Source of the DNA: Promethearchaeota archaeon
Lineage (GTDB): Archaea; Asgardarchaeota; Lokiarchaeia; Sigynarchaeales; SOKP01
Direction: 5' to 3'
NCBI GenBank assembly: GCA_019057975.1
Contig: JAHLWJ010000078.1
Coordinates: forward strand, 1 to 16,126
DNA: 16,126 nt
In this document: piece by piece, positions 481-16,126 of the stretch
How positions within the stretch are numbered: the first letter of the stretch is position 1
How the letters are laid out: the number at the start of each line of letters is the position of its first letter
The notes under the pieces: model-generated
What the model saw: the letters and a program-made list of their open reading frames with translations, nothing else
Told to the model about the DNA's origin: nothing
Databases searched by the model: none
Translations under genes and position numbers: made by a program

Positions 481-539
481 TCATAAGAATATATATTATA
501 TGTAAAGTATAAACAAAAGAGAAATATATATTTTTTAAA

Positions 540-1049
540 ATGGCTCCAGAAAAACAACGACCTAAATATTTCCCTAAAAAAACCATTAAGGAGATTTTAA
601 GGAACAATGGATTCAAGCAAATTATGAATGGAACCGTGGATTTAGTGAATGAAGTAATATCAAAGATATCTAATGAGATTGCATTAGGGGCCATAAAATT
701 AACACGTCTAAAAGGTGTAAAGACGATAAAAAACGAAGCAATAAAAATCAGTGCTCAAGATTTTATAGGAAGAAATTTAGATAACTTAGAAGTAAAATTA
801 TTCACGAATGGACAAATTAGGATCATATTAGAGCAAAATGCTGCAAGGCGAATTTCAAGCGAGTCACTTGATTACTTAAATGAATTAATTTCAAAGACGG
901 CTGAAGATATAGCATTAGATGCTGCGAAACTAATCCATTCAAGGGGATCTGAAATTGATCAAGGTATGGCTATTAAATTAAGCACTAAAAAATTTTTAGG
1001 TGTTCAAGAAAAGAATGAAAATAATATTTATTTTGAGGAGGGCATTTAA
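540..1049 (+). CDS. Archaeal histone-fold doublet (two tandem histone folds)
   Basis: A 169-residue protein holding two archaeal histone folds in one chain. Fold 1 spans about residues 11-75 (FPKKTIKEIL... to GVKTIKNEAIKISAQDF) and fold 2 about 86-152 (GQIRIILEQNAARRIS... to LSTKKFL). Single archaeal histones are about 65-70 residues, so this is a fusion that should fold as an intramolecular pseudo-dimer and bind DNA. Against HMfB recalled from memory, fold 1 keeps the Lys-Thr of the second DNA-binding loop (K61-T62), whereas fold 2 has Glu-Ile there. The position of HMfB Asp59 is Ala in both folds, and His49 is Leu and Ser, so tetramer stacking may be weakened. The short acidic tail follows fold 2. 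It is the first gene of the operon and ends 11 bases before the next. A nucleoid or element-specific chromatin role is likely. Confidence 0.88.
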   Translation: MAPEKQRPKYFPKKTIKEILRNNGFKQIMNGTVDLVNEVISKISNEIALGAIKLTRLKGVKTIKNEAIKISAQDFIGRNLDNLEVKLFTNGQIRIILEQNAARRISSESLDYLNELISKTAEDIALDAAKLIHSRGSEIDQGMAIKLSTKKFLGVQEKNENNIYFEEGI

Positions 1050-1060
1050 ACACGAAAGAT

Positions 1061-1876: not shown

Positions 1877-2694
1877 AAATTAATGATGTAGAATATGAAT
1901 ATTTTATTAATTCTTTTGCAGAATTGATATATGATGGATTTATTGATGGAGATAATCGTCTTTTAAGAGGGGTACAAACATTTGACCTCTCAACTTATTC
2001 CCATCTGGAAGGAATTGAATCTATTATTTCTGTAATGTTTGCATTGACAATTGACGCTAGAATTGAAGCAAAAGATCTAGAAAGGCTACTTACTAACGAT
2101 AAAGAATACTATGAAGAAACTGGAACATATGAAAAAATGATTGAAAGATTAAATAAAAAAAAAAATGGAGAAATTCAATTCTTTCTAATAAAGAATGCAT
2201 GTAGCGGATTAAAGAATGTAATTAAAAATTTATTCTTATTGCAGGAGGAGGGATATATTGAAATAATTGGAGATGAGATAGAGAATGCGAAGCTTAAATT
2301 ATCTACGATCTGGGATGATTATCTTGATTATGTTATAAAGCAAGGATTTGAATCAGAAGTATATGGGAGTTCAATAAGTAGAATGATAGCGTCAGCTCTT
2401 CTAAAGAAGGGTTTTCGATTAATACATCCAATAACTAAAGCATTACTAAAGTCAGAAAAAAATAGCGGAGAGATGAATCCAAGCGACTTTCAAAAGTTAT
2501 TTGAAGATGATGATTTAGAATATCGACATTTTACAAATGTTATTGAAAGAGATCAAAAAAAGCCTAAAGACATTAAATTAATTCATCATAAAAGTGATTC
2601 TAAGATCATTTTTAATAAGGCGTCGTTATACGCAGCAAAAAAATGGTTAACTTTAGTAGAGGAATTAAAATTAGAAGAAGAACGAAAAATTTAA
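1873..2694 (+). CDS. Unknown protein B of a tandem paralogous pair (273 aa)
   Basis: This is the second paralog, starting at an ATG that overlaps the previous stop by four bases (ATGA), with GAGG about six bases upstream. Matching blocks are DGDNRLLRGVQTFDLS (residues 25-40), EEGYIEI, KLSTIWDDY, SSISRMIASALLKKGFRLIHPI and the C-terminal IKLIHHKSDSKIIFNKAS. The family is not recognised. The overlap implies translational coupling and equal dosage, which fits a heterodimer built by gene duplication. Divergence is well beyond a recent duplication. A winged-helix accessory subunit of an SMC-type complex (KITE-like) would suit the context, but nothing in the sequence proves it. Confidence 0.88.
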   Translation: MKINDVEYEYFINSFAELIYDGFIDGDNRLLRGVQTFDLSTYSHLEGIESIISVMFALTIDARIEAKDLERLLTNDKEYYEETGTYEKMIERLNKKKNGEIQFFLIKNACSGLKNVIKNLFLLQEEGYIEIIGDEIENAKLKLSTIWDDYLDYVIKQGFESEVYGSSISRMIASALLKKGFRLIHPITKALLKSEKNSGEMNPSDFQKLFEDDDLEYRHFTNVIERDQKKPKDIKLIHHKSDSKIIFNKASLYAAKKWLTLVEELKLEEERKI

Positions 2695-2711
2695 GATAAG
2701 GTAAATGTAAA

Positions 2712-3437
2712 ATGTCCAAGAAAAGTGAAAATTCTTTTAAAATTTTTTCTCCTGATCAAATTGTTGAGAGTAAAACTGACATTATTGGAGATGAATATCA
2801 GAAAATCTTCAATGATGTTTGGAAAATTATTAGGTATCAACAAAAATATTATATCAGCGATGGAATACCGGGGTTTCTTTTTTATGGTGATGTTGGATTA
2901 GGTAAAACATTAATCGGAAAGACTCTTGCTAAAGAATTAAATTGTCAATTAATCTTTATTGATGGAGCAGATATTGCTCGGTCATTATATGGTCAATCTG
3001 AAAGACAAATTTCAATATTATTTCAAAAAGCAAAGGAGTATAGATATTCTATAGTTTTAATAGATGATTGTGAATCAATTTTTCCTAAAAGAGATTGGAT
3101 AAAGGGAGAATCATGGCATCTTGCTCAAAATAATGTTTTTTTTCATCAAATTGATGATTTAGATTCATCTAAAATATCCGTGATACTTACAACGAATAGA
3201 TTTGATCTTATCGATAAAGCTATTAAAGATAGACTATATAATATAAAGTTTCCCAAGCCAAATCAGAAAACTTTAATAAGCATCGCAAAAAGAAAATGTT
3301 TAAAATTAAAAATTAATTTTGATTTATTAAAATCAAATATGAAATTTGAAGATATTAATTCCATCAGAACTCTAGAGAAAGAAATATTGTCAATATATAT
3401 TAATGAGATATTGAATAATGAAATCCCGTCACAGTGA
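2712..3437 (+). CDS. Single-domain AAA ATPase (classical AAA clade)
   Basis: A 241-residue ATPase made of little more than one AAA module. Walker A is GDVGLGKT (59-66). The conserved stretch YGQSERQISILFQKAKEY (93-110) matches the region before Walker B in Cdc48/FtsH-like AAA proteins. Walker B is IVLIDDCE (114-121), sensor 1 is TTNRFDLID (160-168), followed by the arginine-finger region KDRLYNIKFPKPN and a small helical lid. The usual DE of Walker B is DD here (D118-D119), a conservative change that may slow hydrolysis. There is no N-terminal substrate domain, so partners probably supply specificity. ATG 2712 has AAGG about a dozen bases upstream. It lies between the paralogous pair and the SMC-like gene and may remodel or load that complex. 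The stop codon lies inside a perfect palindrome. Confidence 0.93.
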   Translation: MSKKSENSFKIFSPDQIVESKTDIIGDEYQKIFNDVWKIIRYQQKYYISDGIPGFLFYGDVGLGKTLIGKTLAKELNCQLIFIDGADIARSLYGQSERQISILFQKAKEYRYSIVLIDDCESIFPKRDWIKGESWHLAQNNVFFHQIDDLDSSKISVILTTNRFDLIDKAIKDRLYNIKFPKPNQKTLISIAKRKCLKLKINFDLLKSNMKFEDINSIRTLEKEILSIYINEILNNEIPSQ

Positions 3438-3445
3438 CGGGATTT
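3421..3445. repeat. Perfect 25-base palindrome across the AAA stop codon
   Basis: AAATCCCGTCAC at 3421-3432 is followed by one A and then its exact reverse complement at 3434-3445. As RNA it forms an 11-bp hairpin with loop CAG. It is the most G+C-rich spot nearby. It contains the stop codon of the AAA gene (3435-3437) and ends directly against the GGAG (3446-3449) that serves the next start at 3459. It could be a dimeric-protein operator inside the operon, an RNA processing or stability hairpin, or a structure that tunes access to the SD. No T-run follows, so a terminator is unlikely. Confidence 0.85.
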
Positions 3446-3458
3446 GGAGTTGATTAAT

Positions 3459-3809
3459 ATGACTTTTATTATGGTTCATTGTATTGAAAATAGCATTGCT
3501 TCAATCATCTGGGACTGGTTTGAAGGAAGATCAAGAAAAGAATTGCAGTCATATTTTATGGAAAAGCTTGATACTAGAACATTTTTAATGGAATTAAATG
3601 GAGAATTATTATCTTTATTATGGTCATTAAAAGAAAGATATGACAATAAATTAGATATTTTTATAGCAGAACCCTTATATGAAAGGGATTTACCCGAAGA
3701 AATTAAGGAGGTAGTAAAATGTCTGAAAGAAAACCCGAAAAAAAGAAAAATTTTAGAAAAAGTAAAGGATCTGAAGATAAGATGCTCATTGAATTTGAAA
3801 ATGAGATAA
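3459..3809 (+). CDS. Small protein of unknown function (116 aa)
   Basis: An in-frame TTG at 3444 lies inside the palindrome. The ATG at 3459 is preferred because GGAG at 3446-3449 lies nine bases before it. The product (MTFIMVHCIENSIASIIWDW at the start) has a hydrophobic, aromatic N-terminal third and a very basic C-terminus rich in Lys (KENPKKRKILEKVKDLK). No known motif is seen. Its last 91 bases overlap the next gene in another frame, so the basic tail may be shaped by that overlap. It sits between the AAA and SMC-like genes and could be a small bridging subunit. In haloarchaea the Sph (ASRP) gene has the partner RdfA, but I see no convincing RdfA similarity here. Confidence 0.68.
   Translation: MTFIMVHCIENSIASIIWDWFEGRSRKELQSYFMEKLDTRTFLMELNGELLSLLWSLKERYDNKLDIFIAEPLYERDLPEEIKEVVKCLKENPKKRKILEKVKDLKIRCSLNLKMR
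3705..3712 (+). promoter_or_regulatory. Strong Shine-Dalgarno AAGGAGGT
   Basis: A full-length SD lies inside the upstream gene, with a six-base spacer to the ATG at 3719. It is the best ribosome site on the + strand of this window. It is the main reason for accepting the short overlapping reading frame that starts at 3719. Confidence 0.8.
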
Positions 3810-3916
3810 AAGTATTAATAAATTCTAATAATATTACTCATTCTGCTTTAACTAAAAAAGCAGAAGAGGGTCTAGATAAAATTATTGATAAAATTGTGGA
3901 GAAATATTATGAGTGA
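3719..3916 (+). CDS. Small basic/helical protein overlapping both neighbours (65 aa)
   Basis: The start ATG follows AAGGAGGT with ideal spacing. The product opens with a Lys/Arg/Glu-rich segment (MSERKPEKKKNFRKSKGSED) and continues as a likely amphipathic helix ending AEEGLDKIIDKIVEKYYE. No family is recognised. Its 5' 91 bases overlap the preceding gene out of frame, and its last eight bases overlap the start of the SMC-like gene, so all three are probably translationally coupled. The size and position, just ahead of an SMC-like ATPase, would fit a small regulatory or bridging subunit. An alternative is that it is reached by -1 slippage at the A-run 3738-3744, but the strong SD makes an independent start more likely. 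Confidence 0.7.
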   Translation: MSERKPEKKKNFRKSKGSEDKMLIEFENEIKVLINSNNITHSALTKKAEEGLDKIIDKIVEKYYE

Positions 3917-5756
3917 AGAAATACTTAATATTGAAATGGAAAATGTTGGTGTATTTGGAGGTAAACATAAATTTCAATTAAAAAAAGGACTTAATCTGAT
4001 TAAAGCACCAAATGCTAAAGGTAAAACAAGTTTCACTCATGGTTTGGAACTGCTTATTCTTCCAAGCTCAGAACTAAAAGGTAAGGGATACTATATGAAC
4101 CTCTATGCTAATGCTCCCAACGATAAAATGGAGGTTAGTATTAAATCTAATGAGTATTCGTGGAATAGAAGATTTAGGAGACCAACAAATAGTAATAATC
4201 TATTACCCGTATCTGATGATATTTTTCCCAATTCTAAAATAAATATGGCAAATATTTGCTTTGCAATTCCTGAAAATGAGTTAATGAATTCAATACTCCT
4301 TGGTAAATCAATAAGAGATTATATAGAGCAAATATCAGGAAGTAAAGCATATAATTCAATAATCAAATCTCTTGAAAATAAAATACGAAATTTTCAAAGA
4401 CAACACCAAATATTTCAAGATGATTTAATTAGAATGGAAGAAACACAAAATAATCTAGATGTGGATTATAAAACCAAAAAAGAATTAGAAGCAGAATTAC
4501 AGACTATTCCTGAAGTTGATGAAGAAGAATTATTAAAAAATAAAGAAATAAAAGAAAAATATTTTGATAAGAAGAATAAAAAAGACTCAATTGATAAAAA
4601 AATAAGAAAGAATAAAGGTACATTGGAAAGTCTTAAACAACAGATTAATGATTTTGCTAGGAATATTGAACGAAAGAAACGATTTATTGCTGATATTGAA
4701 TCAGAGCACCCTAAATTAACACAAAAGATTGAAGATTTAAAAGATCAATTAGATATTAAGAAGAAAGAACAGCAAGAATACAAACAAGAGCTAATAAAAA
4801 TAGATGATTATTTAAAATCAATTAGTGAAAATTGGACAAAGATGAATAAATATAAAGAAGAAAAGTGTTCTGCTTGTGGTAGAAAATATAGTCTAAAGGA
4901 ATTGCAGGAATGGGAAAAAGAATGTGAGAACACAAAGAAAGATTATCAAAAACAAAACAAGATATTGAAAAGGGAAATTGAAGATTTGGAAGATAAAATA
5001 AATGAATTACAGAAGCAAGAAAGGCAATTGAGTCTTGAAACATCTAATCTGGCTAAACTTGAAAAAACACATGCTAACAGGGAGTTAGAACACGATAAAT
5101 TAGAGAAGAGTCTTAATTCTGATTTAAAAATCCAAAAAGCAATAGAGAAAGAAATTGATAATTTATTAAAAGATGTAAGTGATGATATTGTTGAACTAAA
5201 GAGGAAGAGAGAGCGATTGATAGATCAAATTGAGGTTTTAGTAGGTAAAAACGAAGAAACCAAAAGAAGACTTACTGAACTCGAAAATAGAACAAAGGGA
5301 GCGGAGATTCTTAAGTATAAATTGGATTTTTTAGAAAAAGGTATAAATTTTCTGAAAATTAAGAGAGATGAGATAATTAATAAAGCTGCAGATAAATTTA
5401 ATATTAGAATTAATGAAATAATAAAAGAATTAGACTATAAAGATTTTCAACAAATTCAGATTAAGGACGATTATAAAATATATATTACAAGAGAAAAAGA
5501 TGGAATGTCATTGTCAGAATGGCCACTTGAAGCTTTATCAACATCAGAACGATATACTCTGGGAATTACTTTTTTAATTGCAGCTAAGGAGGAGTATCTA
5601 CCTGAATTTCCCTTTTTTGTGATTGATGAAATTGTTACTAGTTATGATCAAGATCGAATGAATAAACTCAAGGATTATGTAGCTAATATTACAGATTATG
5701 TTATAATAACTCAACTTGAATCTGAGAGCTCTTTGGATGAACTTGTGATTGAATAA
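3909..5756 (+). CDS. Archaea-specific SMC-related protein (Rad50/Sph-like ATPase)
   Basis: The start at 3909 (MSEEILNIEMENVG) is chosen over the longer in-frame ATG at 3885 because GGAG at 3898-3901 is correctly spaced and overlap with the previous gene is only eight bases. The 615-residue product has Walker A APNAKGKT (33-40), a long coiled coil from about 150 to 520 interrupted by a Rad50-type zinc hook CSAC (320-323), the signature ALSTSER (542-548) in place of LSGGE, and Walker B FFVIDE (569-574). The short arms, the LSxSER signature and the C-terminal layout match archaea-specific SMC-related proteins such as haloarchaeal Sph. Those often have a degenerate P-loop, while here the Walker Lys is intact. 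The protein should dimerise and act on DNA topology, tethering or segregation. No Mre11-like nuclease lies nearby, so a plain Rad50 repair role is less likely. Confidence 0.9.
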   Translation: MSEEILNIEMENVGVFGGKHKFQLKKGLNLIKAPNAKGKTSFTHGLELLILPSSELKGKGYYMNLYANAPNDKMEVSIKSNEYSWNRRFRRPTNSNNLLPVSDDIFPNSKINMANICFAIPENELMNSILLGKSIRDYIEQISGSKAYNSIIKSLENKIRNFQRQHQIFQDDLIRMEETQNNLDVDYKTKKELEAELQTIPEVDEEELLKNKEIKEKYFDKKNKKDSIDKKIRKNKGTLESLKQQINDFARNIERKKRFIADIESEHPKLTQKIEDLKDQLDIKKKEQQEYKQELIKIDDYLKSISENWTKMNKYKEEKCSACGRKYSLKELQEWEKECENTKKDYQKQNKILKREIEDLEDKINELQKQERQLSLETSNLAKLEKTHANRELEHDKLEKSLNSDLKIQKAIEKEIDNLLKDVSDDIVELKRKRERLIDQIEVLVGKNEETKRRLTELENRTKGAEILKYKLDFLEKGINFLKIKRDEIINKAADKFNIRINEIIKELDYKDFQQIQIKDDYKIYITREKDGMSLSEWPLEALSTSERYTLGITFLIAAKEEYLPEFPFFVIDEIVTSYDQDRMNKLKDYVANITDYVIITQLESESSLDELVIE

Positions 5757-5784
5757 AACTTAACTAATAAAATATTGAATCTAA

Positions 5785-5958
5785 ATGGTAGAAGATATAA
5801 ATATCTCTAAGGTAATTAAATTAGGAAACAGTTTGGCAATTGTAATTCCTAAAGAATTTTGTGAAAAATTAAATATCAGAAAAGGTATTCGCCTTGGAGT
5901 GCAACTCGAAGAAGATAAACTAATAATTAAAAAAGTTGGAAAATCAATAAAAGAATGA
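5785..5958 (+). CDS. AbrB/MazE-type (SpoVT-AbrB fold) small DNA-binding protein (57 aa)
   Basis: A short reading frame starting 28 bases after the SMC-like gene. The product reads ISKVIKLGNSLAIVIPKEFC, followed by KLNIRKGIRLGVQLEEDKLI, the classic swapped-hairpin AbrB pattern (K..GNS..I.IP......L.I..G......). Such proteins dimerise and are either transition-state regulators or the antitoxin half of MazEF/VapBC-like pairs. No toxin follows: only a weak 37-codon frame is present downstream, so it is either an orphan regulator, perhaps of this operon, or a leftover antitoxin. There is no SD before the ATG. A T-rich stretch follows the stop. Confidence 0.83.
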   Translation: MVEDINISKVIKLGNSLAIVIPKEFCEKLNIRKGIRLGVQLEEDKLIIKKVGKSIKE

Positions 5959-5963
5959 AGTTA

Positions 5964-5987
5964 TTATTTATTTTTTAAAAAAAATAT
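5964..5987 (+). terminator. T-rich tract, possible terminator of the SMC/AbrB operon
   Basis: The sequence TTATTTATTTTTTAAAAAAAATA begins seven bases after the AbrB stop. Archaeal RNA polymerase can terminate at U-tracts without a strong hairpin, so this is a reasonable end for the left operon. A+T richness of the region keeps the confidence low. Confidence 0.35.
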
Positions 5988-6012
5988 TAGATAAATAATT
6001 GAGGGTATAGAA

Positions 6013-6126
6013 TTGGTTCTTTTTAAGGATTATTTACCAAACGATAATGTCTTTATTTGGTTCGAAACATATGACGAAGATTTAATAAATTCTCTCTCTA
6101 ATAAATATTCTCTTTATTATTATTAG
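6013..6126 (+). CDS. Weak TTG-started frame of 37 codons (doubtful)
   Basis: TTG at 6013 follows GAGG (6001-6004) with eight bases between, and the frame stays open to TAG at 6124-6126. The putative peptide starts LVLFKDYLPNDNVFIWFETY and ends SLYYY. It matches nothing I know. It could be a tiny partner of the AbrB-like protein, the decayed 5' end of a lost toxin, or chance. The rest of 5959-6244 is A+T-rich DNA with short TTAATAATTAA-like repeats and no other signal. Confidence 0.25.
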   Translation: MVLFKDYLPNDNVFIWFETYDEDLINSLSNKYSLYYY

Positions 6127-6244
6127 AATATATTAAATAAAAATAACTTAATAAAAAGCAGGTTAAGGATTAATAGGAAGTAATGTCTAATTAATAATTA
6201 ACAATTAATAGATAAGTGTAAAATTATATATAAGGTGAATTTAA

Positions 6245-6625
6245 ATGGTACAAAACACAGAGAAAGAAAAGAGGCATCAATTAAAAGTCATTGTTAATCT
6301 TATTCTTGATTCAGAGAAATTAGACTTTCCTATTGATGATAATGGAATATTTATATGGGATCCTATTACTTGTATTAATGACTATATCAGTCATGGGCTT
6401 TTTAAGGGACATGATGCCTCTTATATGGATTATTTAGATCCTAGCGAATGTATACAATTCAAAGATTGGGATATAAAATATCCTTCTAAATTGAAAAAAG
6501 AATTAATGAAGATATATATCATGAACATATGGGAACATCCTGAGAGTAAAAGCGGAAAAAAATTACATAAGGATTTTGAATCATTGGAACAGGCATTAAA
6601 CACTATAACTAAAAATTTTGAATAA
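6245..6625 (+). CDS. Unknown protein (126 aa)
   Basis: AAGGTGA at 6232-6238 supports the ATG at 6245. The product has no recognised domain. It starts with a basic segment (EKEKRHQLK) and a hydrophobic helix (VIVNLILDS), followed by an aromatic and Asp-rich middle (FIWDPITCINDYISHGLFKG, then DASYMDYLDPSECIQF) and a helical C-terminus. It looks like a soluble acidic protein. The next gene lies 33 bases downstream on the same strand, so the two may be co-transcribed. No motif links either to the antiviral operon on the other strand. Confidence 0.78.
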   Translation: MVQNTEKEKRHQLKVIVNLILDSEKLDFPIDDNGIFIWDPITCINDYISHGLFKGHDASYMDYLDPSECIQFKDWDIKYPSKLKKELMKIYIMNIWEHPESKSGKKLHKDFESLEQALNTITKNFE

Positions 6626-6658
6626 TTTTAATATAATAATAAAGATAATGAAGTTGTT

Positions 6659-7258
6659 ATGCGATTTCCTCATTTAGAAGTTAAAAGAATGGAAGGAAAG
6701 AAGATTTTATATTGGCTTGTAGATCATCAAATGATTATAATTGATCCAGGAAGAAAAAATGGAAATATTCATTTCTATAAACATGTAAAAACAATAAATT
6801 CTTGCGGCTTAAGATCTGAATTAGAAAGATATTTACATGGAGAAGAATTATCAAATCCCAGCCATTTAATCATTCAAGAGATTATAGATGATATGCATAA
6901 TTTAAAAATGAGTATTTTCCAAGATAAGCTGATGCTTAAAGGATTATGGATTGAAACTTGTGGATATTTATTCCCTGATTTTATTGCTTGTGATGGAGGT
7001 GATCGGAATTACAACAGAAGTCCTGAGAGAAGATATATTTCTATAAAACAAAATATTGAGAAATTATCAGAAACAAATAAAAGAACGAAAGGTTCTTTAT
7101 GGAATGCATTTGCTAGTGAAAAATTTTTTAAAATCGTCCAGACCACTCAATTTAGTAATATTTCTGCATTTAAAGCGTATTATAATGACGAAGAAATAAG
7201 TGTAATGGAATTCAGAGATAAATGGGAAAGAAAAGTAAAAGAACTTATAGAGGCATAA
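6659..7258 (+). CDS. Unknown protein (199 aa)
   Basis: No family is recognised. The N-terminal 50 residues look like beta strands (KILYWLVDHQMIIIDPGRKN), followed by helical segments, a Cys/Asp/Arg-rich patch (PDFIACDGGDRNYNRSPERR, about residues 116-135) and a helical C-terminus ending VMEFRDKWERKVKELIEA. No SD precedes the ATG at 6659. The in-frame ATG eleven codons later has none either, so the start is uncertain. It is probably in one unit with the preceding small gene and converges with the decayed zinc-finger gene. Confidence 0.78.
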   Translation: MRFPHLEVKRMEGKKILYWLVDHQMIIIDPGRKNGNIHFYKHVKTINSCGLRSELERYLHGEELSNPSHLIIQEIIDDMHNLKMSIFQDKLMLKGLWIETCGYLFPDFIACDGGDRNYNRSPERRYISIKQNIEKLSETNKRTKGSLWNAFASEKFFKIVQTTQFSNISAFKAYYNDEEISVMEFRDKWERKVKELIEA

Positions 7259-7263
7259 AAAAC

Positions 7264-7283
7264 TAATTCTTTCTTCTTTTTAA
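7264..7283 (+). terminator. T-rich tract after the 199-aa gene
   Basis: TTCTTTCTTCTTTTTAAA lies just after the stop at 7258 in the 33-base gap between convergent genes. Pyrimidine-rich tracts of this kind can end archaeal transcripts. No hairpin is seen. Confidence 0.35.
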
Positions 7284-7291
7284 AATCAATA

Positions 7292-7917
7292 TCACATATC
7301 TTGTAAAACAAATTTCGGTATCTCACTCATCTCCAAGTTTATTTTATGCTTGGAGGACAAATGATTTTTTAAACTCTGTTTATCCTTCGTGTTAAAAATA
7401 CATTCGGGACATTGATATTTTATAGCATTTTTATTATGCATGCTATTGAGATGTGTTTTTAATGTAGAAATTCTTTTGCTTTCATAATCACAGTGAGGAC
7501 ATTCATACCATTTCAAACCAATGTCATGCTTATTGGTCATATGTTGCTTAAGTGTGGAGTTTCTTTTTGGCTTTCTAATCACAGTGGGGGCACTTATGCC
7601 ATTCAACATCTATATCGTGAATGTCAGCTAAATGTTGTTTCAATCTCGATTTTTTTTCCTTTATAGTCACAATAAAGACATTCTTGTCATTTCACTTCTA
7701 TATTACGAATATTAGTTAGATGTTGTCTCAGTGTATCCCCTCTTTTAGCTCGATATTCACAATAAGGACATTCATACCATATAACATCAATATCATGAAC
7801 ATTTTTTAAATGACGATTAAGACCTCCTTTTGTTTTAAATTCTAAATCTCAATGAGTACAACTATAGTTTTTTAGATGAGGATTATGTTTATTATTGATA
7901 TATCGATTTCGCAGAAA
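7292..7917 (-). pseudogene. Decayed C2H2 zinc-finger array gene (about six fingers)
   Basis: Reading the - strand from about 7917 gives a continuous series of C2H2 fingers spaced at about 28 residues by linkers such as DIDVEWHK. The finger cores are CTH*DLEFKTKGGLNRH, CPYCEYRAKRGDTLRQH, CLYCDYKGKK/SRLKQH, CPHCD*/NSTLKQH, CPHCDYESKRISTLKTH and CPECIFNTKDKQSLKNH. The frame is broken by TGA at 7849-7851 (where Cys is expected), TGA at 7687-7689 (Trp expected), a frameshift at the eight-T run 7650-7657, TAG at 7575-7577 (Tyr expected) and another frameshift just after it. One finger has also lost a zinc His (IRN for IHN). Only the last two fingers remain in an open frame (7292-7609). Tandem C2H2 arrays are typical of eukaryotic DNA- or RNA-binding proteins and occur in some archaea and viruses. 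A surviving two-finger product cannot be excluded. Confidence 0.83.
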
Positions 7918-7956
7918 TATTTCAAGAAATTTTTCAAAAGGGGTTAGAAGAATAAA

Positions 7957-7976
7957 TGCTATTTATATTTTTACTG
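7957..7976 (-). promoter_or_regulatory. TATA-like element upstream of the zinc-finger pseudogene
   Basis: On the - strand the sequence AGTAAAAATATAAATAGC has the BRE/TATA look of an archaeal promoter. It lies about 40-60 bases before the first recognisable finger remnant, a plausible place for the lost gene start. No ATG was found in frame between the two. Confidence 0.3.
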
Positions 7977-8054
7977 CTTATTATTTGATTTAATACTTGT
8001 CGTTAAAAGGTTATTATTTGTATGGTAAATATATATTTAGAATCCTTTTTGTTT

Positions 8055-8315
8055 TTAATTCATTTCGTGCTTTATCAACTTTAGTTCGTTCAGACAGATT
8101 TTTTCAAGAATGTGGCCAGTAACATTATTCTTTTTGACACTCATAATTGTGAGAAGTTCTTGGTATGATACAGGATAAAAGTTATTGTTATCAATACCTA
8201 TATCATATTGATATCTGAAAAGATCGAGGGTTCCATGAGAATGACCATGTAATTGCCATGCATTATAGTTGCTTTTATTCCATACTCTCATCGCATAATG
8301 ACATAATGTTATTGA
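8055..8315 (-). pseudogene. C-terminal fragment of a calcineurin-like metallophosphoesterase
   Basis: The frame encodes LCHYAMRVWNKSNYNAWQLH then GHSHG, a spacer, DIGIDNNNFYPVSYQELL and a short tail. This is the C-terminal third of the small phage- and prokaryote-type metallophosphoesterases: the HYxxxxW block, the metal-binding GHSHG and the D.G.DNNNFYPVS block. The N-terminal half with DxH, GDxxD and GNHD, which carries the other metal ligands, is missing. From about 8315 upward the frame loses family similarity and is taken over by the HNH-like gene on the + strand. With half the active site gone it cannot be a working phosphoesterase. The abrupt loss points to deletion or recombination. 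Confidence 0.78.
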
Positions 8316-8698
8316 TTGACTTTCTATTAGATTCTGATAAATTAATGACGAAATCAGTTGAGTTATTAATAGAAAAATCTCCAATTAAAATTGTTGGTCA
8401 TTCAAAAGAAGAATTTGATAGTTTATATCTGAAACAAGAATTTATGGGTACTCCAATTGAACAATATAAAGGTTCCATGTTTAATCATTATGATTCTAAG
8501 GAATGGGGTTTTAGAAGTGCTGAAATTTTAAAGAGAGACAAAGATTTATGTCATATATGTTTAGTAAAGGGCATTAAAAAGGCAGCAAATACAGTAGCTC
8601 ATAGAAGAAGTAGTTGGAAATATCCTGAGATGTGGTTACATCCTACAATTTTATATGCAACATGCGAAGCCTGTGAAAAAGAAAGACATAATCGTTAA
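8306..8698 (+). CDS. HNH-nuclease-like protein, possibly 5'-truncated
   Basis: The frame is open from 8258, but its first part is antisense to the phosphoesterase remnant. The ATG at 8306 (MLLIDFLLDSDKL) is the first start near the apparent junction, with ATG 8345 as an alternative, and none has an SD. The C-terminal 50 residues look like a small zinc-stabilised HNH fold: CHIC, then NTVAHRRSSW, then HPTILYATCEACEKERHNR. The paired CxxC motifs and the His after the first pair fit HNH. The usual Asp-His is Ala-His and the Asn is His, so catalysis is doubtful. It may be the surviving 3' end of a longer gene. The gene converges with the viperin gene 47 bases away. Confidence 0.55.
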   Translation: MLLIDFLLDSDKLMTKSVELLIEKSPIKIVGHSKEEFDSLYLKQEFMGTPIEQYKGSMFNHYDSKEWGFRSAEILKRDKDLCHICLVKGIKKAANTVAHRRSSWKYPEMWLHPTILYATCEACEKERHNR

Positions 8699-8699
8699 G

Positions 8700-8711
8700 T
8701 CAAAAAATAAC
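8700..8711 (-). terminator. T-run downstream of the viperin gene
   Basis: Read on the - strand, GGTTATTTTTTGAC lies about 35-45 bases after the viperin stop in the gap between convergent genes. It is a plausible U-tract end for the antiviral operon. No hairpin precedes it. Confidence 0.3.
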
Positions 8712-8745
8712 CTAAAACTCGTTGTAATTATAAAATATTTCGTTT

Positions 8746-9606
8746 TCATTGCTTTAATTTAAAATAATCTCCCTTTCTAAATTTAAATTTATTTTGATTA
8801 AATTCTAATCTATTAAAATTCTCTAATGCTCCAAATTTTAGAATAGATTCACTATAATGATGATAATTATATGAATCTTGAAAAAAACACCCATCGGGAG
8901 TTATCATACAGTATGAATCCATTATCATATCAGATGTTTCCCAGACAGGATTTAAGCTAGAATGTCTATGTATAAAAGATTTGAATTGCCAAGAATCTAA
9001 TTTTCCGAATTCTTTGAAGAAATCATCATTAATTCCATAAATCGGATGCACTTCCAATATTTTCCATCTAAAAGGAGTTAATTGAAGAATAATTTCTCTT
9101 AGATCGTCATTCCAATTTAAAGGCGTAATCGTTGTATTAATTTTAAGATAAATATTAAAATTTTTGATTAAATTAACTCGATTTTTTATAAGATTGATGT
9201 GAGAATATGAATTATTTGAGCTATTATACTTTTTTAAACATCTCCCTAATTTATTTTCAATCTTATCAGAACTCGAATCAATACTCAGACCGATAATATC
9301 TAGAGATTTACCACACTTACTTAAAAATTTTTTATCAATTCTGGTTCCATTTGAAATTACTGAAACAAATAACTCTAAGTCTTTTGAATAGTTGATTAGT
9401 TCTGGCAAATGTTTAATTAAGGTTGGTTCTCCTCCTGCGAAGTTAATTTTTTCACATCCATTTTCAGCTAAGATATTAATTAATCTGAGGGACTCTTTTA
9501 GTGATAATTCTTTATTATGGTTTTGATATCGAGCAAAACAAAATTTACAGCAATAATTGCATCTTTCAGTTATGTGATAATTGATTGATTCAGGTAATCT
9601 GTCCAT
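8746..9606 (-). CDS. Prokaryotic viperin (radical SAM ddhNTP synthase)
   Basis: Viperins use a [4Fe-4S] cluster and SAM to convert nucleoside triphosphates into 3'-deoxy-3',4'-didehydro forms that end viral RNA chains. The 286-residue product has the cluster motif CNYCCKFC (Cys16, 20, 23), KINFAGGEP (53-61), SVISNGTRI (82-90), LSIDS (107-111), KIN (155-157), FRWKI (179-183) and MDSYCMITPDG (229-239). The RWK and MDSY blocks follow vertebrate viperin closely and separate it from other radical SAM enzymes. There is no N-terminal amphipathic helix, as expected for microbial forms. The ATG at 9606 is chosen over one 20 codons upstream because GGAGGTG (9615-9621) precedes it with eight bases between. 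It is the last gene of the operon, five bases after the NYN gene. No nucleotide kinase lies beside it. Which NTP it uses cannot be read from the sequence. Confidence 0.92.
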   Translation of the reverse strand: MDRLPESINYHITERCNYCCKFCFARYQNHNKELSLKESLRLINILAENGCEKINFAGGEPTLIKHLPELINYSKDLELFVSVISNGTRIDKKFLSKCGKSLDIIGLSIDSSSDKIENKLGRCLKKYNSSNNSYSHINLIKNRVNLIKNFNIYLKINTTITPLNWNDDLREIILQLTPFRWKILEVHPIYGINDDFFKEFGKLDSWQFKSFIHRHSSLNPVWETSDMIMDSYCMITPDGCFFQDSYNYHHYSESILKFGALENFNRLEFNQNKFKFRKGDYFKLKQ

Positions 9607-9611
9607 TAGAT

Positions 9612-10151
9612 TTACACCTCCAAAATGTACGTTAATTGTAACAAAGATAAAGACATATCCCCACAAAATTCAGGAGAATTACTAATTAACTTGGTATAAT
9701 GGAGATATTCTTTAATCTCTGGAACAATAAAGCGTTTCCCCCTAAAGCGACTCTCAAATCTCCATTTTATTTTCTCACATATTTTCGGAATTTTCGCTTT
9801 ATGATTGCGAAATTGGTCATTTGAGATGATTATTGTTTTAAGTGGGGCAATCTGTAAAAAATCTATGAGATATTCATCTGCTTCATGTCCTTTCTCGCAT
9901 TTTATTATTTTCCAAGAATTTATTTGTTTCCATAACCATTCTGGATTATCGATATATCTGGGCAAGCTATTATCGATAAATATGATAGGATTTATTATTC
10001 TATATTTTCTCTTTAAATCTTCACTATACTTCTGAACTGCTTGAAGTTTAACTTTTTCAGCTACTTTTTCTCCATTCCCATTCCTTCTTGTTATTTGGTT
10101 TGAACCATCGAATAAGACTAGTATTTGATCCATACAAACAGTAAGGATCAT
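9612..10151 (-). CDS. NYN/PIN-domain ribonuclease, Regnase (Zc3h12a)-like
   Basis: A 179-residue protein that is almost entirely one NYN/PIN nuclease domain. Acidic motifs fall in the expected order: LFDGSN (Asp15), a second strand FIDNS (Asp60), GHEADEYLIDFL (Asp92, Glu93) and IIISNDQFRNH (Asp112). The DGSN, [D/E][D/E] and SNDxxxxH layout and the later RFRGKRFIVPEI strand resemble the RNase domain of Regnase-1 and KHNYN, which cut RNA with Mg2+. No CCCH finger or KH domain is attached, so targeting must come from a partner. The ATG at 10151 lies 40 bases after the NACHT stop without an SD, and ATG 10133 is an alternative. The SD of viperin lies in its last codons, so the two are translationally coupled. 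It could be a toxin-like effector or a processing RNase. Confidence 0.88.
   Translation of the reverse strand: MILTVCMDQILVLFDGSNQITRRNGNGEKVAEKVKLQAVQKYSEDLKRKYRIINPIIFIDNSLPRYIDNPEWLWKQINSWKIIKCEKGHEADEYLIDFLQIAPLKTIIISNDQFRNHKAKIPKICEKIKWRFESRFRGKRFIVPEIKEYLHYTKLISNSPEFCGDMSLSLLQLTYILEV
9615..9622 (-). promoter_or_regulatory. Shine-Dalgarno of the viperin gene
   Basis: TGGAGGTG on the - strand lies within the last codons of the NYN gene, eight bases before the ATG at 9606. It settles the viperin start and indicates coupled translation of the two genes. Confidence 0.8.
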
Positions 10152-10191
10152 ACATTAATAAAAGAAGGAAAGGCATTCACATGTATTTTTT

Positions 10192-13100
10192 TTAGAACTC
10201 GTCATCCTTGATTTCTGGAAACGTATTCCGGTAACCTTCAAAATATGTATTAATTTCATTTACAAGATCTGAAATTATTAGGTATTTCCATGCATGTCTT
10301 CGAGCTTTGTCTCTTAAATGTGTTGGAATAAATTCAATCTGATTTGGAAAGAAGATTTCCTTGATTATGATTGGATCTAAGGTTTCTTTTATCCATTCAG
10401 AAGGAATATTTTTAGGACAATTATTATACCACTCTAACAAATTGTTATACTGAATACCATCAAAAATAAGACGTTTGATATATTCCTCTAAATTACCAAT
10501 AAAATAATTGAAGTTATTGCTAAGATAATAATAATCATAATCATCCACTTCTCTTTTTACGAGACGTTTATACTCTGTTTTATCATATAATAAATAAACT
10601 AAGAACCAGAAGATTTGCTTTTGATGTTTTCGAGAAATTTTTGGAGCTTTTTCATCATAATAATCATCCCAACTATCTATGTGAAATGTAGGTATGATAA
10701 ACCTTAATATATTTTCTGTTTCTGAATATAAGCCTTTTGCTTTGATAAATTCTATAATTTCATCGGGATTAATCGTCTCATTTTTTATACCATTAATAAT
10801 ATTTTTTACTTCTTGGTCTTTTATACTTGAGAAATTGTAATAATCATCTCTTGGGGTTGATTGATCCTTATAATCAGGCATTTCATCTATAATTTCTTTT
10901 GATTTTCGAAAATAATTCAAAATATGAAAAATCTTGGAATCTCTATAGGAATAAAATGAATAATCGTTCTCACTCTGTTTTTCACGAACACTATTAATTT
11001 TTTCTACGTAAAATTGTTTTAATTCTTTAAATTCTTGAAGTTCAATCAACTTTTTTTCATCTAACAAATAGGTCATCCTTGCATATTTTGATATCTTTAA
11101 ATTTTTTAAATCTTTAATAATGTGATCATACCTTTCGTTTGAATAATCACTAAGTAGATCATTCAAATAATCTTCATTCGGGATTTCATAGTATAATAGA
11201 CTAAGTAATAATGAATAATTTCTAAGAATATTAAGTTCAAATAAAGACTCATTTTCAAAGATATCTTCAAATCTAAATTCTTTTTTAGGTAGATTCAAAG
11301 GTTCTCCTTTATAGATCCCCTTTTCTCTTTTGATAGATCTAATTTTACTTTTAATTTCCCAATCAAGCTCCTCCTGACATTCCGCCAAAAATTCTTTTAT
11401 GATTGGTATTATTATGGGGGAAAAATTTGAATATAAAAGCAAAACTAATTTATGTTTGAATGACCAATCCGTTTTTATAATTAATACTAAAGCTTCTTCA
11501 ATTTCACTCTTTTTAAACGTTAATAGCTCTTTAAGTAGCTGATTATATACTTCTGCTCTTGTTCCATAATAGAATCTACCAAATTGGCATAAGATTAGAT
11601 ATATTTTAGCTATTGGATTTTTTATGAATGGATATAATTTTTTGGGAAGATCTATGGTAAGATTCCAAAATATTTTATAGGATGGATGAACCTCTTGAGG
11701 TACTAATGGGTATATATAATATTTCTCCCATAAATCCCTTAAAACTAATAGGGGCTTTGAAGGATCTTCTAAAAACAGAGCAAGTTCTGATAATTTTATA
11801 GAATATTTTTGCAAAGCTGATAAAAAGTCTTTACTTTTTTCTTTAACTATTTCTGTTTCTTTTAGCTCTTCAATATATCTTTCATAAACCTCTTTATCAT
11901 AATTAGATTGAAGCTCTTCCCAATCTAACTTGTCTTTTAATTTTTCATTAACAAACTCAAAAGGTAATAAATGAATAATATTCTTTACTTCATCTTTATT
12001 GTCCTTACCATTGATATCTAAATATTCAACATATTCCGGTCTTCTGCGCGAACTCCACCATCTCCCTCCGATCCAATAATCACCATATTTCTTCCAAATT
12101 TTATCATATAAATATTTGTAATCCTTAATATCTCTAAAAAGAATCTTGAAGTCTTTAAAATCAACTTTTTTGCTGATTAATTCATCAATCCATTCTAATC
12201 TAATTTCAGGGCTAATATCTTGAAATTCTTCAAATGCGTGAATTACAAATTTAGGTAAATGTATTAAATTTTCTTCAGGAATAATCTCATCATTATCATA
12301 ATCATCAATTTGGATTTCTTCGCTCAAGAAATAATCAGAAACTAGTTTAAAAAAATGCTTTGCAACATTTTCCATGATATCTGGGAAATCATTCTCAATT
12401 ACATCAAAAATAGCATTTAATTGGATGAGTTCGGGATGATCTTTATCTTCATGGAGAATATAAGATCCTCCTAATCGAGTCACTGTGCCCCAAGTGTCCT
12501 TGTGTTCCTTGAAAAACTCAAATACTTTTCTTAAGTATCGTTCAATATCATAGTAGTTCTTTGGTTTATTTTTATCCCACCAAGTCTTCTGAAACTCCAA
12601 TAAATAATTATTTATGTCTGATAAAAATTCTACAAGTTTTTTATAGTAAGACCTATCCATATAAGGATGATTTCTAAAAATGTTTTCTGAGAAGGAAAAT
12701 AAGAGCTCAAAACCGCACCTAGATAAATGATGTTCTATTTCCTCATCAGAAAAGGATTCACTTTCTTTTATCAATGTAAAATAGAAATATTTTCTAGTTT
12801 TTAATGCATAATCAAATAACAAATTATAATCCCCTAAATATCCATAATCCATATCATTGAGAGCTTTGTTTTGATTTCTATAATTTAAAAAAAGCAAGCA
12901 ATTAAACATAAATCCATATTCTTTTGGATTCTCTTCAGGATTTAGATATTTTTCATCTTCTAATTTTTTACTTAGATCGAATTTCTCATTCCGATATATA
13001 CTGCTTAGGATGGATATTTGTCGATCATCCAGTTCTATCTCAAAAAAGATCTTAACCATTTCATATTTTTGCTTTAATGCGATGGCAGAATTTTTATAAT

Positions 13101-16100
13101 ATTTAATCCATTTAGTAAATAAGTCCTTTGGTATCTTTTCTATTTCTTTAATTTTCTCAATTAACACCCTAATTAATTGATCTAAATGATCCTTATCATT
13201 ACTTTTTAAAAATCGATCAGATTCTTCTAAAGCACGATTAGGATTATCGTCAATTAATATTTTCAGCAATGAATTTTTAATGAATTTATCCTGTGTTGAT
13301 TCATATTTTTTTATGATTAACTCTTCATTTAAGCTGATTTGGTACTCTTTACTTCTCTTAAAACCATCATATACTTTTGCGTACCATGGTATTAAATAAA
13401 TATTATCTGATTCAAAAATTTGAATAATTAGTTTAGGAAGATCCTCTTTCTTATAATAAAAGCGATTTGCAGAATGATCTAAATTATTGTGAAAGAATTC
13501 CATTAAATAATCATCTGCTAATTCCAAATATCTTATCTCTTCTCTGGATTTCACATCAAAGTCTTCAAGATCCAGAAGTTTTGTAATAAGTGTAAAGTAC
13601 TCTGGAGGATTGTGATTTTCTTGTGGTTCACCCATTTCATATTCTTTTGAAATCTCGTCTAAAAAAGAACCCCATACTTTAGTTGGTCTATTAACTTTAT
13701 ACTCCCGAAATAAATCTAATAAACTCCATTTTTTCTCTAAATCATTGTTTTTAATTGCTTTCTGAAATTCAAATTGAAACCCTTTCATAATATAATTACC
13801 GTATTCTAAAGATTCCCAATTCCATGGAAAGGATACATTTCCATAATTATATGGAATATTTAAGGCGGGTAAAATGACGTTAGACTGTAGATATAAATAA
13901 TTTGGAAAATCCTTTTCATTTCGAATTCCTATTTCTTTTATTTTAGGATTATTAATATCTCTTAAGAAAAACTCTTGTAAAAAATCCTCGATTTCCCAAT
14001 TGGGGATTGGCTCTACTGGAGAATCTTTAAGAAACCGGTTATAAATATATTTTGCTAAAAAATATCCTAAAAAATGAGGATCAAGTAAACGGGCATAATT
14101 CTGGAGCCCTTCATAATAAGGTCGAATAAATCGCTTAAGAATCGGATTGTTTATTGTAGCATCAAAATATCTAATTGATTTAATATGCTCAGATTTAACA
14201 CTAGAATAGGCAATCTGAGGTAAAACCTCAAATAATGAATAATTTACTTGGTCATTACCGTATAAATAACCATCAACATATTGCATAAGAAAAAATCTAT
14301 TCTTATCAGAATTACGAGGGATTTTTATTTTTTCTAAATAACTTCTAATATCTTCATCATTTCTAATGCTTTTATAATCCCCAGAATCAAGGTGTTCCGA
14401 GAGTACTTGATAATACACCCACCTTTCATACATCTGGGATTTATATTTTGGTATCTCCATTTTAGGAAATATCCCTAAAATATAAAGGTCTAAAGGAGTT
14501 AAATATCCATGAAATCGTTCTGCTACAATTTCAAAATCTTTTTCTGAATTAAATTTATCAGAAACTATTTGGAGATAATTAAAAGCAGTATCTTTCTCGG
14601 GTAGTTTCAAATTTAAGAAATAATTCTTTTTTTCTAAACTCTCACCCAAATAATGCTTATAAATCGATATTATTGAATTTTCCACATATCTAGTAGAAAT
14701 AATAATTTTTATCCAATCACTTTTCGAAGATCTTACATCTTTAAGCTCTGTCTTAAGTTGGTTTTTAAGAATAGTAATCAATAAATTTTTAATAATTTGT
14801 TTGAGATTCTCCAGGGCCTCGTCCCAACCATCAAATATTAGAAGAATAGGATATTTATTTAGTACCGAATTAAAAAAATTAATCGTATAATTATTATAAT
14901 TATATTCTGAAAGAATTCCCCTCAGTAAAACATTATTTATAAACTTTAGACTATTTTTAGTGGAGATATATCGGTTAAACTCTTCTAAATCAACAACTTC
15001 ACTTTTGTTATAATAGAGTATGTTGTTCTTTATTTCAAAATTTTTTATTGAAAAGAACATTGGAATGATTCTAAAATCGGATTCATTATAGATTTTATTG
15101 AAAATATCTAAACCCAGTTGATATAGTAAAATAGTTTTTCCATAACCTGCAGGCGCCTGGAGTACTAATAAATTTTGTTGAAATTGCTTCAATTTATCAT
15201 CCGATCTATCAAAATGCTCGTAGAGATTTTCAATACAATAATTTTCAAAATTATTTGCCCATTCAAGAAGACTTAATCCTCTTCGGTCATATTTACAATC
15301 AATTTTATATATCCAATCAATATCTTCTATAATATCTTTGTAATAATAGATTTTATTACCTGATTTCGTAAGTCTCACGTCTAGTTTATCTAAATTATTG
15401 ATTAGAGAGTTTTTCAATCGGCTTAAGAGTGTATTTGTCACTATTTTAAATTCTTTAGGATATAATTCAGGATGATCTTTCAAGAATTCTATGATCTCTA
15501 AGAATTTATTTGTAAATTGATAATCTCCTTTATTATCTTCAACAACAAACCAGTTGAATAAATCTTTTATTGACAGATCATGTTTAATAATTTGAAGGCT
15601 TTTTTCGTTAAGTTCTAAATTAAGGAGATTCCAAATACCTTTAACTCCTATTTTTTCCTCTAACAACTTAAAATATAAGAATTTAGCACATATTTCTCCA
15701 ATCTCAGTAAGTATTTTATTTTTCCATTCTTTTCTAAAAAGAATTTCTTCTCCGATCATTTTATTCATTTCTGAACGTGCTGCTTGATATCCTGTTCTAT
15801 CACCAGGATCTAAAAGTTTTACAGTTCCCCCTATTTTAGTTATAGCAATATTAAAGCGTTTAATTAAACTATTTTTTTCAGTTTCAAATAAAGCATTTCT
15901 ATACATACTGGCATCATTTGGAAAGTCATCATCTCCTTTATAAAAATACCATTGTAAAATAAACATTTTCTTAGTAAAGCTCTGCCTCTTATCAACATCT
16001 ATTATATGTTCTATTAGCTTTAATTTATCTTGATTAAGATCTCTTGAAATTGCTTTTAAAAAATTATCTAATTGTACTCTATCAAAATTTTCAATAGAAG

Positions 16101-16104
16101 TCAT
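10192..16104 (-). CDS. Giant STAND NTPase with NACHT-type ATPase core (1970 aa)
   Basis: Residues 1-300 form a helical region with no effector family I recognise. The NTPase core follows: Walker A APAGYGKT (317-324), Walker B PILLIFDGWDEA (419-430) in the NACHT/Avs style (DGxDE), and IIISTRYVE (467-475) as the sensor-1 Arg region. After the NTPase helical domains comes a C-terminal part of roughly 1350 residues, rich in Tyr, Phe, Leu, Lys and Glu, mostly helical. It has no leucine-rich or WD repeats that I can see and no clean TPR, and presumably acts as sensor. The layout (N-terminal module, central STAND NTPase, very long C-terminal sensor) is that of bacterial and archaeal Avs and bNACHT immune proteins and of animal NLRs. 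The start at 16104 is only 22 bases from the window edge, so its promoter and any upstream genes are outside. It is the first visible gene of the operon with the NYN RNase and viperin, which may be its effectors. Confidence 0.93.
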   Translation of the reverse strand: MTSIENFDRVQLDNFLKAISRDLNQDKLKLIEHIIDVDKRQSFTKKMFILQWYFYKGDDDFPNDASMYRNALFETEKNSLIKRFNIAITKIGGTVKLLDPGDRTGYQAARSEMNKMIGEEILFRKEWKNKILTEIGEICAKFLYFKLLEEKIGVKGIWNLLNLELNEKSLQIIKHDLSIKDLFNWFVVEDNKGDYQFTNKFLEIIEFLKDHPELYPKEFKIVTNTLLSRLKNSLINNLDKLDVRLTKSGNKIYYYKDIIEDIDWIYKIDCKYDRRGLSLLEWANNFENYCIENLYEHFDRSDDKLKQFQQNLLVLQAPAGYGKTILLYQLGLDIFNKIYNESDFRIIPMFFSIKNFEIKNNILYYNKSEVVDLEEFNRYISTKNSLKFINNVLLRGILSEYNYNNYTINFFNSVLNKYPILLIFDGWDEALENLKQIIKNLLITILKNQLKTELKDVRSSKSDWIKIIISTRYVENSIISIYKHYLGESLEKKNYFLNLKLPEKDTAFNYLQIVSDKFNSEKDFEIVAERFHGYLTPLDLYILGIFPKMEIPKYKSQMYERWVYYQVLSEHLDSGDYKSIRNDEDIRSYLEKIKIPRNSDKNRFFLMQYVDGYLYGNDQVNYSLFEVLPQIAYSSVKSEHIKSIRYFDATINNPILKRFIRPYYEGLQNYARLLDPHFLGYFLAKYIYNRFLKDSPVEPIPNWEIEDFLQEFFLRDINNPKIKEIGIRNEKDFPNYLYLQSNVILPALNIPYNYGNVSFPWNWESLEYGNYIMKGFQFEFQKAIKNNDLEKKWSLLDLFREYKVNRPTKVWGSFLDEISKEYEMGEPQENHNPPEYFTLITKLLDLEDFDVKSREEIRYLELADDYLMEFFHNNLDHSANRFYYKKEDLPKLIIQIFESDNIYLIPWYAKVYDGFKRSKEYQISLNEELIIKKYESTQDKFIKNSLLKILIDDNPNRALEESDRFLKSNDKDHLDQLIRVLIEKIKEIEKIPKDLFTKWIKYYKNSAIALKQKYEMVKIFFEIELDDRQISILSSIYRNEKFDLSKKLEDEKYLNPEENPKEYGFMFNCLLFLNYRNQNKALNDMDYGYLGDYNLLFDYALKTRKYFYFTLIKESESFSDEEIEHHLSRCGFELLFSFSENIFRNHPYMDRSYYKKLVEFLSDINNYLLEFQKTWWDKNKPKNYYDIERYLRKVFEFFKEHKDTWGTVTRLGGSYILHEDKDHPELIQLNAIFDVIENDFPDIMENVAKHFFKLVSDYFLSEEIQIDDYDNDEIIPEENLIHLPKFVIHAFEEFQDISPEIRLEWIDELISKKVDFKDFKILFRDIKDYKYLYDKIWKKYGDYWIGGRWWSSRRRPEYVEYLDINGKDNKDEVKNIIHLLPFEFVNEKLKDKLDWEELQSNYDKEVYERYIEELKETEIVKEKSKDFLSALQKYSIKLSELALFLEDPSKPLLVLRDLWEKYYIYPLVPQEVHPSYKIFWNLTIDLPKKLYPFIKNPIAKIYLILCQFGRFYYGTRAEVYNQLLKELLTFKKSEIEEALVLIIKTDWSFKHKLVLLLYSNFSPIIIPIIKEFLAECQEELDWEIKSKIRSIKREKGIYKGEPLNLPKKEFRFEDIFENESLFELNILRNYSLLLSLLYYEIPNEDYLNDLLSDYSNERYDHIIKDLKNLKISKYARMTYLLDEKKLIELQEFKELKQFYVEKINSVREKQSENDYSFYSYRDSKIFHILNYFRKSKEIIDEMPDYKDQSTPRDDYYNFSSIKDQEVKNIINGIKNETINPDEIIEFIKAKGLYSETENILRFIIPTFHIDSWDDYYDEKAPKISRKHQKQIFWFLVYLLYDKTEYKRLVKREVDDYDYYYLSNNFNYFIGNLEEYIKRLIFDGIQYNNLLEWYNNCPKNIPSEWIKETLDPIIIKEIFFPNQIEFIPTHLRDKARRHAWKYLIISDLVNEINTYFEGYRNTFPEIKDDEF

Positions 16105-16126
16105 TAAGTTTTCACAATATTTTTTT

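Follow-up and report, generated by a model that had tools for sequence, protein, structure and literature searches.

Do three adjacent genes of an Asgard archaeon, encoding a giant STAND-type P-loop NTPase, a NYN ribonuclease and a viperin, make up one antiviral system, or do they only share a transcript? The question is raised by contig JAHLWJ010000078.1 of a Promethearchaeota archaeon, of which we analysed positions 1 to 16,126 (the window, 16,126 nt long, with a G+C content of 25-30%) and in which a sequence-only reading had proposed a single three-part antiviral system. We observed that the pairing of NYN and viperin genes is recurrent, but a fixed triplet is not supported. That the operon acts as an antiviral unit, in which a single sensor serves two effectors directed at RNA, is a reading to which we give slightly less than an even chance.

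The three genes follow each other on the minus strand in the order STAND NTPase, NYN and viperin, separated by 40 and 5 bp (Table 1), and no terminator-like site was found at positions 8500-10400. The Shine-Dalgarno sequence of viperin, GGAGGTG, falls within the final codons of the NYN gene; the window contains two copies of the heptamer, compared with 0.24 expected. In two further Asgard loci described below (L125 and L128), the GGAGG preceding viperin is likewise located inside the NYN gene. This placement of the ribosome-binding site suggests that NYN and viperin may be translated in a coupled manner. The open reading frames and the position of GGAGGTG confirm the co-directional arrangement and the spacing that had been described for this locus. 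Between the start of the STAND gene and the window edge there are 22 bp, the region upstream falling outside the window; the gene looks complete because its homologue P0123 begins at the matching position.

Table 1 Features of the three-gene operon in the window
Feature	Position	Strand	Details
STAND-type P-loop NTPase gene, putative sensor	10192..16104	-	open reading frame, 1970 amino acids (aa)
40-bp gap from STAND stop to NYN start	10152..10191	-	
NYN (Zc3h12a/Regnase-like, predicted PIN-fold) ribonuclease gene	9612..10151	-	179 aa
GGAGGTG Shine-Dalgarno sequence of viperin	9615..9621	-	within 3' end of NYN gene
Viperin gene	8746..9606	-	286 aa, ATG at 9606

Judged from its sequence, the third gene certainly encodes a prokaryotic viperin (pVip), as had been proposed. 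Its product scored 254.1 bits against a cut-off of 180 for viperin_w_prok (NCBIfam NF038283) and matched the PADLOC pVip family with E=4.2e-73. In an alignment of 45 viperin sequences, C16, C20 and C23 of the CX3CX2C radical S-adenosylmethionine (SAM) motif as well as G58-G59-E60-P61 are invariant. The protein carries the viperin C-terminal region, and most of its length aligns to solved viperins or viperin-like enzymes, with residues 4-282 aligning to one solved viperin-like enzyme.

The assignment of the second gene required more support, as its product scored 14.1 bits for Pfam PF11977, below the cut-off of 23, which makes the label weak by this test, and as a lone query it found no NYN structure among solved chains. 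A protein search with the window NYN yielded two close relatives only, sharing 99% and 88% identity, the latter (P0002, from a Thorarchaeota metagenome-assembled genome, MAG) starting at the second methionine (10133); therefore, recurrence was sought by profile within viperin flanks. In the alignment of 15 relatives, D15, N18, D92, I108, N111 and D112 are invariant, and we take the acidic residues D15, D92 and D112 together with the DxxN and SND motifs to be the catalytic motifs of NYN RNases. The profile of these relatives, searched against solved chains, retrieved ZC3H12C/A/B, KHNYN and PRORP2 at E 6e-11 to 8e-9 (ZC3H12C, E=5.9e-11; KHNYN, E=5.1e-9). The counterparts in L128 (29.5 bits), L087 (32.4), L088 (23.1) and L073 (33.9) exceed the PF11977 cut-off. 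A low-confidence AlphaFold2 (AF2) model of the NYN protein (mean predicted local distance difference test, pLDDT, 52.9) gave Utp24 PIN as the top Foldseek hit (E=0.01) and MCPIP1 at rank 17, with none at E<=0.001; this model and that of STAND residues 1-750 are too poor to rely on, and Foldseek was run with the NYN model only. Because the counterparts pass the cut-off, the acidic residues are invariant and the relatives' profile finds ZC3H12, KHNYN and PRORP, we regard the predicted Zc3h12a/Regnase-like identity as sound, even though the window protein itself misses the PF11977 cut-off.

The giant protein is less readily placed. Its NTPase lies at approximately residues 300-480 and is followed by a long C-terminal part, while neither Pfam nor PADLOC recognised an effector domain in the N-terminal part. 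Walker A (APAGYGKT), Walker B (LLIFDGWDE) and an ISTR motif, all read by eye, are largely kept in two homologues, P0123 (70% identity, from a Promethearchaeia MAG) and P0124 (41%). By the identities to P0002 and P0123, the window looks Asgard-archaeal. The Pfam scores of the window protein, 15.3 for NACHT (cut-off 26.7) and 20.3 for nSTAND_NTPase5 (cut-off 34), are both below threshold, and among the homologues P0124 alone passes a model (NPHP3_N, 25.2 versus 24.8). No PADLOC family, the Avs models included, matched the protein at E up to 0.01, the alignment profile found no solved structure, and the AF2 model of residues 1-750 had a pLDDT of 42.3. Thus, of the earlier designation as a giant STAND/NACHT NTPase, the P-loop motifs hold up, but the NACHT and nSTAND cut-offs were missed, and NACHT would here denote a likeness, the family not being settled.

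Support for a functional connection comes from the neighbourhoods of other viperins. Among 227 Asgard genomes, viperin was found in 14, at 15 places (E 1e-40), and two of these, L128 (genome G119) and L125 (G012), have a NYN gene immediately next to viperin in the same direction, that of L125 being truncated where the contig begins. When PF11977 was searched independently in these 227 genomes, it yielded 120 matches in 95 of them and placed both viperin-linked NYNs above the cut-off (28.8 and 24.7 bits). The two neighbour pairs compare with a chance expectation of ~0.005 (P for two or more, 1.2e-5), a figure (0.0049) computed with 123 PF11977 matches and an assumed 750,000 genes, the match table summing to 120. 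The genes of L128 are strongly diverged from those of the window, and yet the order giant tetratricopeptide repeat (TPR) protein, NYN, viperin is repeated there, the giant protein comprising at least 1546 residues with TPR repeats, located ~75 bp upstream of the NYN-viperin pair and cut by the contig end. The junction of this pair has a peculiarity of its own: NYN and viperin share one frame with a single TAA between them (L128:9700-9860), no ATG, GTG or TTG occurs in frame from the NYN stop to the first viperin cluster cysteine, and GGAGG precedes an ATT. A non-standard start, read-through, a broken fusion and a sequence error are indistinguishable as readings of this junction. The top match to the window NYN family in the 227 genomes (L155:8123-9545, E 1.6e-13) was rejected as a viperin pair since it overlaps a SPASM radical-SAM gene, and it represents a second NYN-radical-SAM pair.

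The pairing extends beyond Asgard archaea. In three viral contigs (L086, L087 and L088, 3 of 20 loci), a coiled-coil protein with a C-terminal NYN is encoded directly upstream of viperin; the L086 and L088 NYN proteins are 94% identical, and in L087 and L088 the pair sits among phage head/tail-like genes as read by eye. These contigs look like bacterial prophages. Among 80 genome-contig loci (80 kept out of 137 relatives), L073 from Euryarchaeota UBA23 (Thermoplasmatota) carries a gene combining PF11977 and SAP directly downstream of viperin. L010 (Thermoplasmatales) has a PF01936 NYN (32.9 bits) whose gene overlaps with the 3' end of viperin; this NYN belongs to a different subfamily and was counted in the tree label only. 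The LabA-like NYN (by look) of L002 was not counted, being non-adjacent and with its profile matching two more places in the stretch. Over 111 viperin loci, PF11977-like NYN genes made up 6 of 203 adjacent open reading frames (ORFs) and 0 of 1236 other flank ORFs (Fisher test, 7.4e-6; 3.5e-4 when the three viral contigs are treated as one), and all six are co-directional with viperin. This count omits the duplicates L101-L117, L133, L001, L003 and L004 and viperin matches of <=60 bits, and keeps loci cut by contig ends; its profile was partly grown from the counted NYN genes, found by whole-flank scans, a circularity of which the PF11977 count over the 227 Asgard genomes is free.

A viperin tree of 130 rows, as the sequence-only reading had called for, shows the NYN-linked viperins scattered: the eight linked rows (seven PF11977-like, one PF01936) need six state changes, with or without the 22 rows of unrecorded surroundings, in a quick tree without bootstrap whose rows labelled as lacking NYN include loci with cut flanks. 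The pairing has thus been gained or lost repeatedly and does not reflect inheritance of a single operon. The worry that the genes might occur together only in this contig or in near-identical relatives is removed for the NYN-viperin pair, because distant Asgard loci as well as Thermoplasmatota and prophage-like ones also carry it, but the full triplet has one look-alike, L128.

These arrangements also bear on the possibility that NYN is a regulator, trimming the operon or viperin mRNA in the manner of Regnase-1 and holding viperin at a low level until the STAND protein lifts this control. Regnase-1 controls immune mRNAs, and the tight coupling of the NYN and viperin genes would fit such a role. 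In the same vein, MCPIP1 is described as a negative modulator of inflammation in the part of PMC10560294 available to us. However, the fusion of NYN to a coiled coil in the viral loci and to SAP in L073, as well as its position downstream of viperin in the latter, do not conform to a single cis-regulatory scheme, and we consider this explanation improbable.

The link of the giant protein to the pair is less certain. The STAND homologue P0124 and the viperin P0027 (54% identity) come from the same source, and for each of them the longest contig listed measures 13,959 bp, hence they are probably encoded on one contig; no NYN from that contig was found in a search that would miss a diverged NYN. 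Relatives of the STAND protein were detected in 2 of the 227 Asgard genomes, G083 and G153, in a search that scored at most two candidates per genome. The G083 homologue shares 26% identity over 655 residues, and ~130 bp downstream on its strand lies a gene for 166 aa in which PIN-like motifs were read by eye (the two genes together, L180:5930-12816). For G153, the relative consists of 222 aa of C-terminal sequence located at the end of a contig. The stretches examined around these relatives (20 kb in G083, 12 kb in G153) contain no viperin, and the association of STAND with viperin suggested by P0124 and P0027 was not repeated there. The G083 arrangement, a STAND gene and a PIN-like gene without viperin, is possibly a separate STAND-RNase pair.

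The wider distribution of NYN-viperin than of STAND-viperin would also be expected if NYN cleared or processed viperin-terminated RNAs (stalled, with 3'-deoxy-3',4'-didehydro ends), protecting viperin or recycling for it, and if the STAND gene were an unrelated upstream gene. Genes for other RNase folds, HicA and RelE, adjoin pVips as well (PMC10865869). Against this, a giant protein is encoded upstream in the same order in both L128 and the window, and we rate this explanation as very improbable.

Several observations weigh against the single antiviral unit. Besides the rarity of STAND relatives and the absence of viperin near them, the PIN-like gene of G083 scored 13.6 against a PIN Pfam cut-off of 23.6, and no PIN structure was found for it by sequence search, while the L128 giant protein lacks its N-terminus, so that an NTPase is not visible there. 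No NYN neighbour was seen at 13 of the 15 Asgard viperin places, with the upstream side cut in L127 and L132, and most viperins seen have partners other than NYN. Conversely, NYN without viperin is common (PF11977 in 95 of the 227 Asgard genomes versus viperin in 14). Among 389 genomes of the phylum of L073, which hold 11 viperins including those of L073 and L010, a PF11977-like match is absent from 10 of the 11 viperin stretches, of which L194 and L200 end soon after viperin. The coil-NYN of L086 gave no PF11977 match, with two residues unread. A further viral contig, L134, has a coil-NYN without viperin in the ~700 bp present downstream, and two examined plasmid records out of 19 matching this protein contain no viperin. 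NYN was beside viperin in 0 of the 9 plasmid viperin regions examined (of 14). As the genome searches scored limited candidates per genome, and the genome-contig loci represent 80 of 137 relatives, such absences are incomplete.

These points would be accommodated by a defence island in which STAND, NYN and viperin share a transcript and act independently, NYN and viperin being popular cargo. The diversity of viperin partners fits this explanation: kinase-family genes (L118 by Pfam; L119 and L121 by look), helicase-like genes (L125, L129 and L130, by look), CARF-like genes (by look), DUF3800 (L124) and a TPR protein (L126). So do the many genomes carrying NYN without viperin and the HNH-like gene with a PtuB match that adjoins the operon. 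Cargo assembled in this way would not, however, readily account for PF11977-like NYN being the direct co-directional neighbour in six of six cases in the viperin flanks, nor for GGAGG of viperin lying within NYN in three Asgard loci. We judge the defence island to be unlikely.

NTP binding turns STAND proteins on, and they oligomerise; since no effector domain was recognised in the window protein itself, the RNase encoded beside it is its natural candidate effector. If the operon is one antiviral unit, the STAND protein would detect an infection signal via its long C-terminal region and, upon NTP binding and oligomerisation, would recruit or license NYN in trans, which would then cut RNA. Viperin, translated in coupling with NYN, would produce 3'-deoxy-3',4'-didehydro nucleotides (ddhNTPs) that stop viral RNA synthesis, and the two arms may act jointly. 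Viperins make RNA-terminating modified nucleotides (PMC10865869), and in the part of PMC11291487 available, 9 of 48 Asgard viperins, and one more after codon adaptation, protected E. coli from T7, which we count in favour of this reading. Taken further, these loci might represent a distinct defence type, in which NYN and viperin are governed by a giant sensor, either STAND or TPR, infection triggers both RNA cutting and chain termination, and a mobile NYN-viperin core circulates among Asgard archaea, other archaea and prophages with its sensor swapped (STAND, TPR or a fused coiled coil); we put this forward as a tentative and rather doubtful extension.

Further genes surround the operon in the window. 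The HNH endonuclease-like gene (8258-8698) converges on viperin with 47 bp between them and has PHROG matches in addition to the PtuB match (E 2e-5), and a small C2H2 zinc-finger protein of 105 aa (PF13909, 40 bits) is encoded on the minus strand at 7292-7609. A plus-strand cluster (540-5756) comprises a histone gene (two matched stretches, NF043032, 53.9 bits, cut-off 50), two similar-looking genes of no named family (1061-1876 and 1873-2694), an AAA ATPase gene (2712-3437) and an SMC-like gene near the 'archaea-specific SMC-related protein' (286 bits versus a cut-off of 300).

Other viperin neighbourhoods showed associations of their own. An AA_kinase-like gene directly follows viperin in L118 (PF00696, 62 bits), L119 and L121 (both by look), all from Asgard archaea, whereas the partners in L029 and L065 are thymidylate-kinase-like (by look); the viperin frame of L119 has 559 codons. 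In L125, L129, L130, L194 and L002, viperin is followed by a large helicase-like gene, one family by look (cut in L194), often with CARF-like genes (by look as well) nearby, perhaps as a larger conserved archaeal cassette. At L124:4866-6591, viperin directly follows a DUF3800 gene (78.7 bits), which possibly encodes another nuclease in the place of NYN, and a TPR-repeat protein of at least 1559 aa, with a P-loop by eye, is divergent from this pair. An RNase III with a double-stranded RNA-binding domain (PF14622, 70.7 bits; PF00035, 51.9 bits) is encoded ~500 bp upstream of the Asgard viperin in L131 (L131:1857-4641), where a 165-aa gene without a Pfam match overlaps the viperin end. Thermococcus viperins (L023:5283-6865 and L042) overlap by 4 bp with a 233-237-aa gene carrying a DLEYY motif.

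How does this locus compare with known systems? Avs and bacterial NACHT defence proteins are large STAND NTPases with a long C-terminal region, which the window protein resembles in both respects, differing in that it has no PADLOC match and no recognised N-terminal effector, the effector presumably being encoded separately. The NYN proteins share the catalytic domain family of the animal ZC3H12/Regnase and KHNYN RNases, as indicated by the profile search of solved chains, but are small (159 aa in L128, 179 aa in the window) and without a Pfam CCCH-finger or KH match. The available part of PMC11291487 proposes Asgard viperins as ancestors of eukaryotic viperins. As described in the accessible part of PMC12988326, which attributes it to Bernheim 2021, an archaea-only viperin system type includes a TPR protein. 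By that description it resembles L128 and L126, in which a large TPR protein occurs with viperin, but the partner in the window is a STAND NTPase and not a plain TPR protein, and the term NYN does not occur in the main text of PMC12988326. Our literature search returned no report of a NYN-viperin pair in titles, abstracts or the passages available, with mention in Bernheim 2021 or Shomar 2024 possible.

The closest parallel is the pVips of classes 9 and 10, which adjoin HicA or RelE toxin genes according to the accessible text of PMC10865869. There, too, an RNase gene lies directly beside a prokaryotic viperin, HicA up- or downstream, and joint action has been proposed. Here, the RNase is predicted to have the NYN/Zc3h12a (PIN) fold and is neither HicA nor RelE, the pairs occur in archaea and prophage-like contigs, and at two Asgard loci the first gene of the operon encodes a giant STAND or TPR protein. 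Viperins have so far been described alone, with kinases, with HicA or RelE and with TPR proteins, as far as the available parts of these sources go. An RNase beside viperin is therefore already known, and what differs here is the NYN partner, whose recurrence in archaea and apparent prophages suggests a two-pronged RNA-directed defence; if this is true, two families of enzymes that vertebrates use in antiviral control of RNA would already have worked alongside each other in archaea.

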